Below, in pieces: positions 45,665 through 64,000 of a stretch of 64,000 bases of DNA (its first letter is position 1; each line of letters starts with the position of its first letter). Origin of the DNA: Siphonodentalium dalli (Eukaryota; Mollusca; Scaphopoda; Gadilida; Siphonodentaliidae); assembly GCA_032622095.1 (NCBI GenBank), contig CP136068.1, forward strand, positions 52,446,443 through 52,510,442, written 5' to 3'. The position numbers were made by a program, and so were the translations under genes. The notes beneath the pieces were generated by a model. That model saw only the letters and a program-made list of their open reading frames with translations, was not told where the DNA came from and did not search any database.

Positions 45665-45934
45665 TCGACCTAAATGTGTCGCTACTACTTTTGTAATTCA
45701 AAAATTTAATTTGGCAATTCCAGCAAGTATGTGTCCAAAAAGGAAAGAAATGCTTTAACGTGAGTGAAAAGAAGTGTTAATTTAAAATTTCAATATTTAT
45801 GACTTGTAAAATCATTTGTCTCAATTCAAAACCTCTAGAATGGTCTCTGTCCGATATAATCAACTGCGATTCAAATATTTAAACTAAATATAAAAAACCA
45901 AACAAATTATTTCATCGCTTTTGGTCCTACAATA

Positions 45935-46107
45935 CTCCCATAGGGAGCCTTGCATATATAAGAGAATACATTGGCCTAACAATATCTACCTTGATCTTGT
46001 AAGCCAGTGCATTCTCCTAATATCCGGGGCACCCAATGGGAGACTCGTATATAAGAGAATGCACTGGCAAAGGATAGCTAGTGCAGCTCCCATCATGAAA
46101 GGGTTAA
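45935..46107. mobile_element. Left-truncated family B TTAA MITE
   Basis: The internal palindromes (TATATAAGAGAATACATTGG, then GCCAGTGCATTCTCCTAATA and AAGAGAATGCACTGGC) and the right end CATCATGAAAGGG-TTAA are present, but the left end is missing. The right TTAA at 46,104-46,107 is also the first four bases of the adjoining 39-bp array. Confidence 0.75.
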
Positions 46108-47090
46108 TGCTTGGGACATGTACTCTGCATGAAGATCAGTTATTAATGCTTGTGACATGTACTCAGCATGAGGATCAGTTATTAATGTGTGGGATATGTA
46201 CTCGGCATGAGGATCAGTTATTAATGCGTGGGATATGTACTTGGCATGATGATCAGTTATTAATGCTTGTGACATGTACTCAGCATGAGGATCAGTTATT
46301 AATGTGTGGGATATGTACTCGGCATGAGGATCAGTTATTAATGTTTTGTGATAGGTAATCGGCATGAGAATCAGTTATTAATGCGTGGGATATGTACTTG
46401 GCATGACGATCAGTTATTAATGCGTGGGATATGTACTTGGCATGATGATCAGTTATTAATGCTTGGGACATGTACTCAGCATGAGGATCAGTTATTAATG
46501 TGTGGGATATGTACTCGGCATGAAGATCAGTTATTAATGCGTGGGATATGTACTCAGCATGATGATCAGTTATTAATGTGTGGGATATGTACTCGGCATG
46601 AAGATCAGTTATTAATGTGTGGGATATGTACTCGGCATGAAGATCAGTTATTAATGTGTGGGATATGTACTCAGCATGATGATCAGTTATTAATGCTTGT
46701 GACATGTACTCAGCATGAGGATCAGTTATTAATGTGTGGGATATGTACTCGGCATGAGGATCAGTTATTAATGTTTTGTGATAGGTAATCGGCATGAGAA
46801 TCAGTTATTAATGCGTGGGATATGTACTCGGCATGAGGATCAGTTATTAATGCTTGGGACATGTACTCAGCATAAGGATCAGTTATTAATGCGTGGGACA
46901 TGTACTCGGCATGAGGATCAGTTTTTAATACGTGGGACATGTACTCGGCATGAGGATCAGTTATTAATGCGCGGGACATGTACTCGGCATGAGGATCAGT
47001 TATTAATGCTTGTGATAGGTAATCAGCACGAGAATCCGTTATTAATGCTTGGGAGATGTGCTCGGCATGAGAATCAGTTATTAATCAGTT
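46104..47090. repeat. 39-bp minisatellite, about 25 units
   Basis: The unit reads TTAATGCGTGGGATATGTAC, then TCGGCATGAGGATCAGTTA. Variants include CTTGTGACATG and TTTTGTGATAGGTAATCGG, the latter recurring 420 bp apart at about 46,341 and 46,761, which implies a block duplication within the array. Degenerate outlying units continue at about 47,590-47,790. The stop-free frames it creates (for example GICTRHEDQLLM) are by-products of its length being a multiple of 3. Confidence 0.9.
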
Positions 47091-57564: not shown

Positions 57565-59412
57565 TCAAGAGAGATCCATCTCTTCATCATTCCCAACATT
57601 CACAATCGGCTTCTGAGAATATGAAGCCTGCAAAATCGACTGTGCTTGCGATATTTGTGAATCGCTCGCCGAGCATGGAGTATTTCCATTCACAGAAATG
57701 TCGCCTACACACAGATGATTTTCACTTCCGATAGAAAGTCCTGCGATTCCTGTCCCAACACTCGCAAAATATGATTGGTCCTGCGAATGTGCCTTCCCAT
57801 TTGGAAAAGCCATGTCGCCGCTAACATTCGGATAAATACCTAATGTATTACTGCTTTCTGCCAACGTTCCTGAACCCGAATAACTTCCTTGCAGAAGCGT
57901 GTGAGAAAGAACGTCCTCCGACAGTTCAAGTTTTTGGCCAGGTGGCAGAAGTTGCGAAAGAGTGTTTTTTCGTTCAACTCTCGCACCAGTTGACTGATTG
58001 CTTGCACTTGATAATTGATCTTCTAAGCTAAAGTCATTAAAATTTGGTGGATTTTTCGTGTCGATTTGCAACATTTGTAGTTGCTGTTGGAGCGGCGTGT
58101 GTTTCTGGAACGTCTGCCGTTTTTGTTGCAGACGATGCTGAAGAAGCTGTTGCTGTAACGATTTGACGGGTGACTGAATTTGATATGCTGACATTGGCAA
58201 CTCTTCTGTTCTGTCAATGTGTTGCTCTAGCTGTCGACTGTGCTTCATCGCCAAGAATTTATGTGGCTGCATGTCGACCGTGTCTGAAGGTAAACTCATC
58301 CTTTTCAATAAAGGATGTGATGATTTTATCCCATACCTAGAATTATACTCATCCAGCGACATTTGTCGAAAACCGGCTCTGTCATTATAATGACGTTGCC
58401 TGGCCCGTAAAGCCTCTTCATCGTTTAAAAATTCCTTGTACCTGTTTTGAAGCTCTTGATGTTCCTGGCGAAGTTCGGCCATGCCTTGCGTCCGCATTCC
58501 TTCACGTAATCGTTGCTTAAACGCTATAACTCCTTGAGCTACAAGTCCATCAGAAGCTCGTCTGCCTTCCCTGAAATTAACAGGTGACCTCATTCGCGAC
58601 CTCTCCATGGTAACATTTTCCTGCAGCGTGCATGTTTTTTCATCGGTAGCATCAGATATTGCGTTCGAATCCTCACTGACCTGGCTTAAAGGTGGCTGAT
58701 TGTCATTTGGGCCTCCGACTAGACCAGGATGCAACAGAGAATTGATGCTACTTTGAGAGTTTAGACAAAGACTAGACATAGAATCGGGCTCAAACGATGA
58801 GTCGAAGCTGGTGAATGTCGAACTCAAGTTTGGCTGGTCAGTTTTCGATTGATCCTTGTTACTGTTGTTCGATTCAACTCCAACAATTTGTGACATATCA
58901 CCAAAAGCACAACTCGGGACCAGCCCGATGCCGTACCCATCACGAGCGAAACCCTGATCACGACTCTCCACGTTATCACGATTATCCTCCTTTTCATACA
59001 TATCTGCTTCAACACCCTCGTCGATTGACGTTGTTATCACTTGACCAGGAACATGCGTTTTGACCGTTGGTTTTGGAAACACTTCCTGTATGGCTATATT
59101 CACACCAGGTGGCACCTGTATGTTCTCGATGTCCAACAGTTGACCCCTATTACGAACAGGGACTGATGGGTAATCGACAGACTGACTTGTCTTCAGACAC
59201 GCTAGAACCTGCGATGCAGTAAGAAAGGGTGCACCAGCGCCTGTCATGTTCGGAGCATTCCTTATTATTGCTTGGTCCGATATAGTACTTGGTCTTCTCT
59301 TCCGTGGATCGACACAATTGTCTGTGGGATAACTGTATCGATGTTGACGAATTCGTTCTTGTAAAAGGTAATATATTGCTGTGTAATGATCGTATGCATC
59401 ATTCTTTAGAGC
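57565..59412 (-). CDS. Salt-inducible kinase (SIK2/SIK3-like), last coding exon
   Basis: This exon encodes about 615 residues. It starts ALKNDAYDHYTAIYYLLQER, the second half of the UBA domain that follows the kinase domain of SIKs. Next is RKRRPSTIS (near 59,276-59,305), which matches the PKA-phosphorylated 14-3-3 site RRPSTI of vertebrate SIK2/3, and later SPVNFREGRRASDG (near 58,545-58,585), the second PKA/14-3-3 site. A glutamine-rich block LQQQLLQHRLQQKRQ is also typical of SIK2/3. The acceptor is TTGTTGACAG at 59,413, phase 0; the stop is at 57,565-57,567. SIKs are AMPK-related Ser/Thr kinases activated by LKB1 that phosphorylate CRTC coactivators and class IIa HDACs; cAMP/PKA inhibits them through these sites. 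SIK2 versus SIK3 is not resolved. Confidence 0.93.
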   Translation of the reverse strand, partial: ALKNDAYDHYTAIYYLLQERIRQHRYSYPTDNCVDPRKRRPSTISDQAIIRNAPNMTGAGAPFLTASQVLACLKTSQSVDYPSVPVRNRGQLLDIENIQVPPGVNIAIQEVFPKPTVKTHVPGQVITTSIDEGVEADMYEKEDNRDNVESRDQGFARDGYGIGLVPSCAFGDMSQIVGVESNNSNKDQSKTDQPNLSSTFTSFDSSFEPDSMSSLCLNSQSSINSLLHPGLVGGPNDNQPPLSQVSEDSNAISDATDEKTCTLQENVTMERSRMRSPVNFREGRRASDGLVAQGVIAFKQRLREGMRTQGMAELRQEHQELQNRYKEFLNDEEALRARQRHYNDRAGFRQMSLDEYNSRYGIKSSHPLLKRMSLPSDTVDMQPHKFLAMKHSRQLEQHIDRTEELPMSAYQIQSPVKSLQQQLLQHRLQQKRQTFQKHTPLQQQLQMLQIDTKNPPNFNDFSLEDQLSSASNQSTGARVERKNTLSQLLPPGQKLELSEDVLSHTLLQGSYSGSGTLAESSNTLGIYPNVSGDMAFPNGKAHSQDQSYFASVGTGIAGLSIGSENHLCVGDISVNGNTPCSASDSQISQAQSILQASYSQKPIVNVGNDEEMDLS

Positions 59413-59907
59413 CTGTCAACAAGAACATGATATTAATTTATACCTGGGTGGAAAAAACAACAGGTTGCAACACGGGTGCTGGCATACTCTTGCAGTGCCA
59501 AATTTAAACATGGACAAGACGGAACCCCAAATTTAGGACTACAACATCAACATTTCCAAATATACAAAGAAGAAGAAAAAGGATAACTCTATCTAAAGCA
59601 GAAAATGTGAATGTCTTGGGTCCTGGGGACATCTTCCATATCAAATTCAACTCAGATGAGATGAAGCAAGATAAATGCCCAGACGGATACTACCGGTAGA
59701 TGGACAAAGTCAATACAATATATCCACAATGTTTTTTTTAAGTGGACGTAATTAAAAAGGTTCTATTGTTTTTATATTATAAGAAGATTATAAATGGTTT
59801 CTTGCAATTGCAATTCAAAATTTACTTCTACCTGTTAATATTATCACACAAGTTTGTTACGACACGGTGGTAGAATGATTTATGCTGATCATTGGACCTC
59901 TATAGTG
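59413..59907 (-). other. SIK intron, unique part
   Basis: Sequence between the 39-bp array and the last exon. It contains CAAAGAAGAAGAAAAAGGAT and CTCTATCTAAAG, resembling the inverse of the 174-bp repeat (about 59,565-59,600). No exon was supported. Confidence 0.5.
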
Positions 59908-60724
59908 ATAGCTAACTCCTACCTCTATTGTGGGAGCTAACTCCTACTTCTATTGTGGGAGCTAACTCCTACCTCTATTGTATTATGTCGATCATGGGAG
60001 CTAACTCTTACCTCTATTGTATTATGCTGATCATGGGAGCTAACTCTTACCTCTATTGTATTATGCTGATCATGGGAGCTAACTCTTACCTCTATTGTAT
60101 GATGCTGATCATGGGAACTAACTCCTATCTCTATTGTATGATGCTGATCATGGGAGCTAACTCTTACCTCTATTGTATTATGCTGATCATGGGAGCTAAC
60201 TCTTACCTCTAAATGAGTGTATGATGCTGATCATGGGAGCTAACTCTTACCTCTATTGTATGATGCTGATCATGGGAACTAACTCCTATCTCTATTGTAT
60301 TATGCTGATCATGGGAGCTAACTCTTACCTCTATTGTATGATGCTGATCATGGGAGCTAACTCCTATCTCTATTGTATTATGCTGATCATGGGAGCTAAC
60401 TCTTACCTCTATTGTATTATGCTGATCATGGGAGCTAACTCTTACCTTTATTGTATGATGCTGATCATGGGAGCTAACTCTTACCTCTATTGTATTATGC
60501 TGATCATGGGAGCTAACTCTTACCTCTATTGTATGATGCTGATCATGGGAGCTAACTCTTACCTCTATTGTATTATGCTGATCATGGGAGCTAACTCTTA
60601 CCTCTATTGTATTATGCTGATCATGGGAGCTAACTCCTACCTCTATTGAATTATGCTGATCATGGGAGCGAACTCCTACTAGTACCTCTATTGTATTTTG
60701 CTGATCATTGGAGCTAACTCCTAC
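59908..60724 (-). repeat. 39-bp minisatellite made of exon end plus 5' splice site
   Basis: Read on the minus strand, each unit is GATCAGCATAATACAATAGA-G, then GTAAGAGTTAGCTCCCAT. The first 21 nt are the end of the SIK exon at 60,725-60,745 (encoding DQHNTIE), and the last 18 nt begin with its intron. About 20 units follow the authentic donor; about 13 have GAG|GTAAGAG and the rest GTAGGAG or GATAGGAG. The frame stays open through about 13 units (VRVSSHDQHNTIE) to a stop at about 60,209. One unit is 45 bp and a few near 59,915-59,960 are shortened to about 24 bp. Confidence 0.92.
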
Positions 60725-60948
60725 CTCTATTGTATTATGCTGATCAATGCCTAGGCTTTGCATAAGTCGTAGGATCTGTTCACTGTATTCTCCAGCTTTC
60801 GTCTTTTCACCTATCAGTGGTGTTGACGTCATCATTTTGTCCAGTTTCTCACCACCTTGCTTCATCCAGTGGTGATTGCGAATCTGTTGTATTGTATAAC
60901 GCTTTGACGGATCAAGAACAAGCATTTTCCTTATAAGGTGCTCACATT
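60725..60948 (-). CDS. Salt-inducible kinase (SIK2/SIK3-like), penultimate coding exon
   Basis: This exon encodes about 75 residues: (E)CEHLIRKMLVLDPSKRYTI, then IRNHHWM, the end of the kinase domain (alpha-helices G-I region), followed by EQILRLMQSLGIDQHNTIE, the first half of the UBA domain. Both match vertebrate SIKs closely (CEHLIRRMLVLDPSKRLT and EQVLRLMHSLGIDQQKTIE). The acceptor is TTATTTTCAG at 60,949, phase 1. The best-supported donor is GAG|GTAGGAG at 60,725/60,724, phase 0, which joins exactly to GCT CTA AAG of the last exon to give ..NTIE-ALKNDAY... Many copies of this donor follow in the 39-bp array. The upstream kinase exons are outside the window. Confidence 0.92.
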
Positions 60949-62599: not shown

Positions 62600-64000
62600 A
62601 TGAGGGAAGTGGACAGTAGGGTGTGCCAAAAGATTTAGTCATGCAAAGAGTAAAATCCAAGATGGCTGCCAGCGGTCATATTTTATGGCCGAATGACCCC
62701 CAAAATGACCCGTTCCCATCTACATGTCATTGTTAACATCCATGACAAATTTCATCATGATCCGATCAAAGGTACGACCTGTAACCCGTACTAAAGGATT
62801 TAGTCATGCCAAGAGAAAAATCCAAGATGGCTGCCAGCAGCCATGTTTTATGACTGAATGACTCCAAAATGGCTCGTTCCCATCTACATATCAATGTTAA
62901 CATCCATGACAAATTTCATGATGATCAGACGAACACTCTGGTCTGTAGTCTGCGGATTGAATTGAATTGATAGAATTTTGAAATCCAAGATGACCACTGG
63001 CAGCCATGTTTTATGGCCGAATGACCTCAAAATGACTCGTTCCCATCTGCATGTCAATGTCAACAGCCATGACAAATTTCATAATGATCCGACCAAAGGT
63101 ACAACCTGTAGCCCGTACCAAATGATTTAGTCATGCAAAGAGTAAAATCAAAGATGGCTGCCAGTGGCCATGTTTTATGGCCGAATGGCCCCAAATGACT
63201 CGTTTCCGATCTACATGTCAATGTCTACATCCATGACAAATTTCATAATGATCCAACCACAGGTATGAACTGTAGCCCATGCCATATGATTTAGTCATGC
63301 AAAGAGTAAAATCAAAGATGGCCGCCTGCGGCCATGTTTTATGGCCGAATGACCCCAAAATGACTCGTTTCCCATCTGCATGTCAATATTAACATCCATG
63401 ACAAATTTCATAATGATCCGACAAAAATTCCAGCCTGTAGCCCATGCTAATGGATTAAATTTTGAAATCCAAGATGGCCGATGGCAGCCATGTTTTTTTG
63501 CCGAATGACCCCCAAAATGACTCGTTCCCATCAACATTTCAATGTTAATAGCCATGACAAATTTCATGATGATCCGACCAAAGGTACGACCTGTAACCCG
63601 TACCAAAGGATTTAGTCATGCCAAGAGAAAAATCCAAGATGGCTGCCAGCAGGCAATGTTTTATGGCCGATTGACCCCAAAATGACTCATTCCCATATAC
63701 ATGTCAATGTTAACAACCATGACAAATTTCATGATGATCCGACCAAAGGTACGACCTGTAGCCCGTGCCAAAGGATTTAGTCATGCAAAGAGTAAAATCG
63801 AAGATGGCTGCCAGTGGCCATGTTTTATGGGCGAATGACCCCAAAATGACTTGTTCCCATCAACATGTCAATATTAACGTCCATGACAAATTTCATGATG
63901 ATCCTACCAAAGGTACGACCTGTAGCCTGTGACAAAGGATTTAGTCATGCAAAGAGTAAAATCCAAGATGGCCAAATAACCCCAAAATGACTCGTTCCAA
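62600..64000. repeat. Tandem repeat of about 160-170 bp, at least 8 units, running off the window
   Basis: Units share AAAATCCAAGATGGCTGCC, CATGTTTTATGGCCGAATGA, CCCAAAATGACTCGTTCCCA and ATGACAAATTTCATGATGAT. Repeat starts are near 62,650, 62,817, 62,983, 63,147, 63,309, 63,466, 63,630, 63,797 and 63,959. The words are similar to dispersed repeats I recall from marine invertebrates. The array continues past the right end. Confidence 0.85.

Follow-up and report, generated by a model that had tools for sequence, protein, structure and literature searches.

The minisatellite of the human gene IFI6 (6-16, G1P3) was reportedly described by Turri et al. in 1995 as giving multiple splice donor sites. 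According to the accessible part of PMC4526556, two of the downstream repeat units in IFI6 are used as donors, which leads to three mRNA species. In Drosophila, partial tandem duplication of exons at proto-splice sites has been identified as a source of novel introns (PMC2891723, in its available portion). As to the choice among competing sites, the available sections of PMC9225289 indicate that the splice sites closest to each other across the exon are preferred where the flanking introns are long; they also recount the classical opposite, an intron-proximal preference, for short introns and intron-defined splicing. Only IFI6 and the Drosophila duplications emerged from the literature search as relevant leads on such arrays. 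The array considered here, at the donor end of an exon of a salt-inducible kinase (SIK) gene, is a splice-junction minisatellite derived from this same exon edge. Its 39-bp units stand head to tail within the roughly 10-100 bp typical of minisatellites (as do the 72-bp units of a second array, in the segment L033 described below), and each unit joins the exon end to an intact 5' splice site, with the authentic site as the first copy, as in a splice-donor minisatellite of the IFI6 type.

The minus strand of the window (the whole stretch of 64,000 nt that was analysed) carries the 3' part of the SIK gene. Exon C, at 60,948-60,725 on that strand, codes for the last part of the kinase domain and the first part of the UBA domain; it ends in ...ILRLMQSLGIDQHNTIE, with ...SLGIDQHNTIE as its last residues, and is followed by GTAGGAG. 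Its best PDB match is SIK3 (E 1.4e-12), and by itself it scores 20.5 bits against Pfam Pkinase, under the cut-off of 31.7. The authentic 5' splice site, GAG|GTAGGA, lies at 60,719-60,727 (minus strand); a SIK3-like paralogue has the homologous intron (TQE|GTGAGT), and the junction is collinear with SIK3. The intron between exons C and D (59,413-60,724, minus strand; 1,312 bp) contains the donor array. Exon D, at 57,565-59,412 on the minus strand, starts with ALKNDAYDHYTAIYYLL and is found at one place only in the genome; it holds an open reading frame of 615 residues to the stop, encoding the remainder of the UBA domain and the C-terminal region. Exons A and B lie in the 10 kb directly above the window (L033), exon A ending in ...GPQIDIW|GTAAGC and exon B beginning CAG|AGTTTGGGTGTT..., SLGVVLYVLVCGALPFDG.... 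The exon B donor that the frame requires, at L033:2547, is AGG|GTTCGT, a weak fit to the consensus as judged by eye. The introns flanking exon C are about 5.6 kb and 1.3 kb long.

Joined at their exon-proximal sites, exons A, B, C and D form one open frame, which aligns with the solved SIK3 structure at E 9.8e-80; all three junctions are aligned, and the sole gap, of 2 residues, lies elsewhere. Among the PDB chains compared, the best MARK match reaches E 2.7e-60, so that SIK is the closest of these solved kinases. The alignment to SIK3 extends through the UBA domain, and the Pfam Pkinase match of exon A exceeds its cut-off; the UBA_SIK3 match, with the domain divided over two exons, stays sub-threshold at 20.6 bits versus a cut-off of 27. 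The original prediction had placed the point at which additional residues would enter between NTIE and ALKNDAY, and this is indeed the exon C/D junction in the SIK3 alignment.

The donor array occupies 59,884-60,724 on the minus strand and comprises 22 unit starts, mostly 39 bp apart, of which 19 (counting the authentic one) have GT and 3 have AT. These starts run from 60,724 to 59,922, the final unit reaching about 59,884, where the end of unit 22 is an arbitrary cut. TRF reports the 39-bp array at 59,956-60,746 (20.0 copies, 91% matches, score 1308) and an additional 25-bp row at 59,896-59,981. Unit 1 is 45 bp long, unit 13 is 44 bp and units 20 and 21 are 25 bp each, the rest being 39 bp. 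The exon C end and the repeat unit have 22 nt in common (TGATCAGCATAATACAATAGAG), to which about 17 nt of intron are added. The repeat had been described as the exon's last 21 nt joined to the intron's first 18 nt, and the number of additional complete donors had been put at about 20; its composition from the exon edge and the existence of an array of full donors both stand, while the shared exon part has to be corrected to 22 nt and the donor number was slightly high, given GT at 19 of the 22 starts including the authentic one. AT replaces GT at 60,367, 60,289 and 60,128. The authentic type, GTAGGAG, is found in units 1-3 and 20-22, GTAAGAG in 13 inner units and ATAGGAG in three inner units; this pattern of diverged edges around a homogeneous core was probably left by repeated tandem exchange. 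Selection on the donor array, or coding constraint, was considered and dropped in view of the GT lost in 3 of 22 unit starts and the odd lengths of 45, 44, 25 and 25 bp.

Scored with a 5' splice-site weight matrix, the authentic donor reaches 8.25, 13 downstream copies reach 10.1-10.3 and three further copies again 8.25; thus 16 downstream donors equal or exceed the authentic score and 13 are above it. The expectation that most copies fit the consensus better than the authentic site is borne out by this donor-by-donor scoring. The predicted pairing with the 5' end of U1 is nearly equal, at -9.3 versus -9.6 kcal/mol. Elsewhere in the window, with the donor array and a 24-bp array excluded, 21 of the 4,366 GTs on both strands attain the authentic score, which puts the occurrence of 16 inside about 840 nt far from chance. 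The frame had been said to stay open for about 13 units, and it does so up to the first in-frame stop, a TAG at 60,211-60,209 (minus strand) within unit 13; extension from 9 downstream donors is in frame and stop-free, and from none of those past this TAG. An AlphaFold2 model of the read-through open reading frame (245 aa, single sequence) has a mean pLDDT of 65, with residues 1-69 mostly below 50 and the repeats drawn as strands at about 53-84; nothing was drawn from this model.

The finding is larger than first noted, since the preceding SIK exon has a longer splice-site array, beyond the window. This acceptor array heads exon B at L033:2670-7537 (C8:52,513,112-52,517,979), just above window position 64,000, and holds 66 intact 3' splice sites. 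Its unit consists of the last 27 nt of the intron (pyrimidine tract and CAG) and the first 42 nt of exon B, most copies having an extra CAT that brings them to 72 bp. The 66 acceptors, including the authentic one, span 4,809 nt, and each is in the frame of exon B, which it reaches without a stop. Successive unit starts delimit 66 stretches, 41 of them identical, with lengths of 69, 72, 96 and 144, all multiples of 3; in one copy CAT replaces CAG. The array is stop-free in two of the three sense frames and in one antisense frame; since frames other than the coding one are open too, the open coding frame was dropped as evidence of coding.

The proposed local origin from the exon edge is supported. 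All 10 genome matches to a three-unit donor query fall within the SIK donor array, and the 36 genome matches listed for two acceptor units are all in the acceptor array; a dispersed repeat thus finds no support for either SIK unit, every match listed being at its own array (an absent match does not prove rarity). The protein of exon C has a sole other match in the genome, the SIK3-like paralogue. This gene lies on the same contig, and at the homologous position its exon terminates in LQIDRNRTQE|GTGAGT. Five small TRF arrays were detected in the 8.5 kb surrounding that paralogue, none of them at the homologous exon end. Exon end and junction of the SIK gene align with SIK3, and this collinearity across the junctions, together with the lack of such an array at the homologous exon end of the paralogue, suggests that the array is younger than a long-established exon edge.

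Other repeats are present in the window. A 24-bp satellite occupies 20,983-43,896 (about 23 kb, 954 copies by TRF), with minus-strand open frames of thousands of codons, and a second 39-bp array, different in sequence from the SIK unit, lies at 46,104-47,085 (25 copies by TRF). The open reading frame at 45,897-46,355, which overlaps the latter, has no Pfam match. At E 0.01 no Pfam match was obtained for six open reading frames of the window beyond the SIK ones.

Splice-site arrays recur at other exons of the genome. TRF was run on 115 exon loci cut from the same genome, 108 of 123 kinesin matches and 7 of 20 AAA ATPase matches; 19 of 135 kinase matches were also cut out and are counted separately from the 115. 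Left out were 15, 13 and 116 rows, respectively: several of the kinesin rows are near-identical copies, most of the kinase rows belong to one cluster on C2, and the rest were just not taken. One locus, L106, was chosen out of list order for its long open frame; no array covers its match. At 14 of the 115 loci (5 of 60 plus 9 of 55) the coding match is overlapped by an array. Thirteen of the 115 have one or more additional tandem splice-site copies, with the exon edges and sequences read by eye in a sample drawn mainly from one protein family: donor arrays at 11 loci (L064, L084, L087, L103, L105, L121, L125, L129, L135, L140 and L150) and acceptor arrays at three (L103, L143 and L154). L150 is included despite the loss of GT in its second copy; L139, where an array overlaps the match with no AG copied, is outside the 13. 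The cuts of L105 and L129 end within their arrays, making their donor counts minima, and L105 shows at least eleven copies of ...LVDLAG|GTAACT at 34-bp steps up to the end of the cut. A single exon in L103 has arrays at both ends. In three kinesin gene copies (L103 with L115, L116 and L117, at C7:209.49, 209.79 and 207.98 Mb), which might be recent duplicates or unmerged haplotypes, the exon sequences agree at 121-122 of 122 nt and are followed by 13, 10 and 13 donors, the nearest proxy in this one assembly for variation of array length between individuals. The excess of donor over acceptor arrays, 11 to 3, is not claimed (two-sided binomial 0.057).

The 11 sampled donor arrays supply 39 extra donors, just one of which (L103, +30) is in frame and stop-free. 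Array coverage over the 115 loci is 6.1% at 1-50 nt and 5.2% at 51-200 nt outside the match, and within the match 5.0% over the outer 30 nt and 2.3% deeper; at 201-350 nt outside the match it is 7.0%, for the first 60 loci only. Over the 115 loci, then, exon edges show no clear enrichment or depletion of arrays, which are scarcer only in exon interiors. None of the 19 kinase loci has an array over the coding match, though one 17-bp array of 2.4 copies lies about 20 bp off. The cluster at C2:149.83-150.59 Mb comprises dozens of protein-kinase matches that are nearly identical and lie in open frames of about 281 codons; many are regularly spaced, about 2.4-2.9 kb apart, and the whole looks like a tandemly amplified kinase gene without an intron in the domain.

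The reading that best accommodates these observations, with a probability of roughly 0.72, is that splice junctions have repeatedly been amplified in tandem and that this is tolerated, exon definition leading to use of the exon-proximal copy. A short stretch over the 3' edge of the SIK exon, 22 exonic and about 17 intronic nt, would have been duplicated in tandem, then expanded and homogenised to give full copies of the 5' splice site behind the real one. Such arrays would be by-products of the high activity of tandem duplication in the genome, tolerated by virtue of the pairing of splice sites across the exon; the copy nearest the exon body would be used in nearly all productive transcripts, the others going unused or being used at a low level. 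Most productive SIK mRNA would accordingly use the 60,725/60,724 junction and the final one of the 66 acceptors, despite the 13 downstream donors of better consensus. The by-product view is supported by the recurrence of splice-site arrays at 13 of the 115 loci, by a coverage that stays even from the flanks into the outermost 30 nt of the match, and by the differing donor numbers (13, 10, 13) of near-identical gene copies. Exon-proximal use is inferred from what yields an intact protein. It is favoured by the single open A-D frame that aligns to SIK3 via the exon-proximal sites and, at the sampled loci, by the frameshift or stop that follows from 38 of the 39 extra donors, such that full-length kinesins, if made, need the exon-proximal donor or nearly so. 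The position of exon C between introns of about 5.6 kb and 1.3 kb, combined with the cross-exon rule, likewise suggests that the SIK gene uses 60,725/60,724 and the last acceptor.

Several observations stand against tolerated amplification with exon-proximal use. Both SIK arrays are open and in frame (9 donors and all 65 extra acceptors), compared with the one in 39 of the sampled donors; a rough estimate puts the likelihood of both being open by chance at no more than a few per cent. This reading does not account for their openness, and in-frame SIK isoforms are conceivable. The downstream units of IFI6 reported as donors, in what is available of PMC4526556, argue against exclusively exon-proximal use, and the intron-definition rule, as told in the available part of PMC9225289, would favour the intron-proximal copy. 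The absence of arrays over the match at the 19 kinase loci also counts against it.

Should the arrays instead be used, the donors would add n x 13 residues in the UBA domain and the acceptors about n x 24 after DIW in the kinase domain, generating many length isoforms of SIK. The stop-free extension from 9 donors, the 66 of 66 acceptors in frame over 4,809 nt, the 13 downstream donors whose consensus fit exceeds that of the authentic site and the reported employment of downstream repeat donors in IFI6 (PMC4526556, accessible part) all fit this idea, which is nevertheless unlikely: the inserts would fall inside the UBA domain and right after DIW, where solved SIK3 has no gap, the acceptor array is open in non-coding frames as well, and donor units of 44, 25 and 25 bp disrupt the frame. 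The main known role of the SIK UBA domain is to aid LKB1-dependent activation (PMC8057676, available text), and a 13-residue insert within it should therefore be harmful. The length-variable, splice-variable kinase originally put forward is disfavoured as a general explanation, both by the SIK insert's place inside the UBA domain and by the sampled exons, where 38 of 39 extra donors are non-productive. More doubtful again is a SIK that acts as a repeat-tunable kinase, in which both in-frame arrays are used and array length sets a graded mix of active and altered SIK for each cell or individual; it is less well supported than the conclusion that splice-site arrays are common and tolerated here, exposing the exon-proximity rule at 2 to 66 copies.

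The copies might also serve without being spliced, as a decoy array of U1 or U2AF platforms that tunes splicing speed, restrains premature polyadenylation or buffers splicing factors. Binding is plausible, with 13 downstream donors outscoring the authentic one and 65 extra acceptors retaining pyrimidine tract and AG, but GT is lost in 3 of 22 unit starts and arrays are about equally frequent at exon edges and elsewhere in the flanks, as expected without function, so that such a role is very improbable. That the locus is an assembly artefact or a decayed gene copy, its arrays meaningless for splicing, is least credible of all. Tandem arrays are difficult to assemble, but exons A-D are intact across the conserved region, exon D has an open frame of 615 residues, and the UBA exon matches a single further place in the genome, the SIK3-like paralogue. 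Arrays whose units differ are present at many distinct loci, and those of three gene copies are related without being the same.

The choice of the spliceosome among equivalent neighbouring sites has mostly been studied with pairs of sites. Ordinary genes of this genome offer from 2 to 66 tandem donors or acceptors, in copy numbers that vary between near-identical gene copies, and long-read cDNA from one individual could read the rule of splice choice directly from such arrays. They suggest that an exon edge can undergo tandem expansion without the expansion necessarily being purged, a point relevant to the way minisatellites enter exons and intron edges shift.

A minisatellite of donor copies is already known from IFI6. 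The acceptor counterpart, arrays on two successive exons of the same gene and recurrence across the genome appear to be new, no report of them having been found in a literature search that took in few subscription journals. IFI6, as far as the accessible text describes it, resembles the SIK gene in that a tandem array at a splice donor provides several donors; it differs in being one gene with donors only, whereas here there are also a 66-copy acceptor array, two consecutive exons with arrays and recurrence in the genome, the extra SIK sites being putative donors and acceptors. The Drosophila duplications (PMC2891723, available portion) are likewise tandem duplications over a splice motif that create extra splice sites; in that case one copy becomes an intron through duplication of an exonic AG/GY motif, whereas in SIK the exon edge has been copied many times into an existing intron. 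The rule applied here, cross-exon proximity with long introns, comes from PMC9225289, where, in the sections available, pairs of competing sites are compared in the constructs and the data set; the arrays of this genome present up to 66 natural tandem copies.
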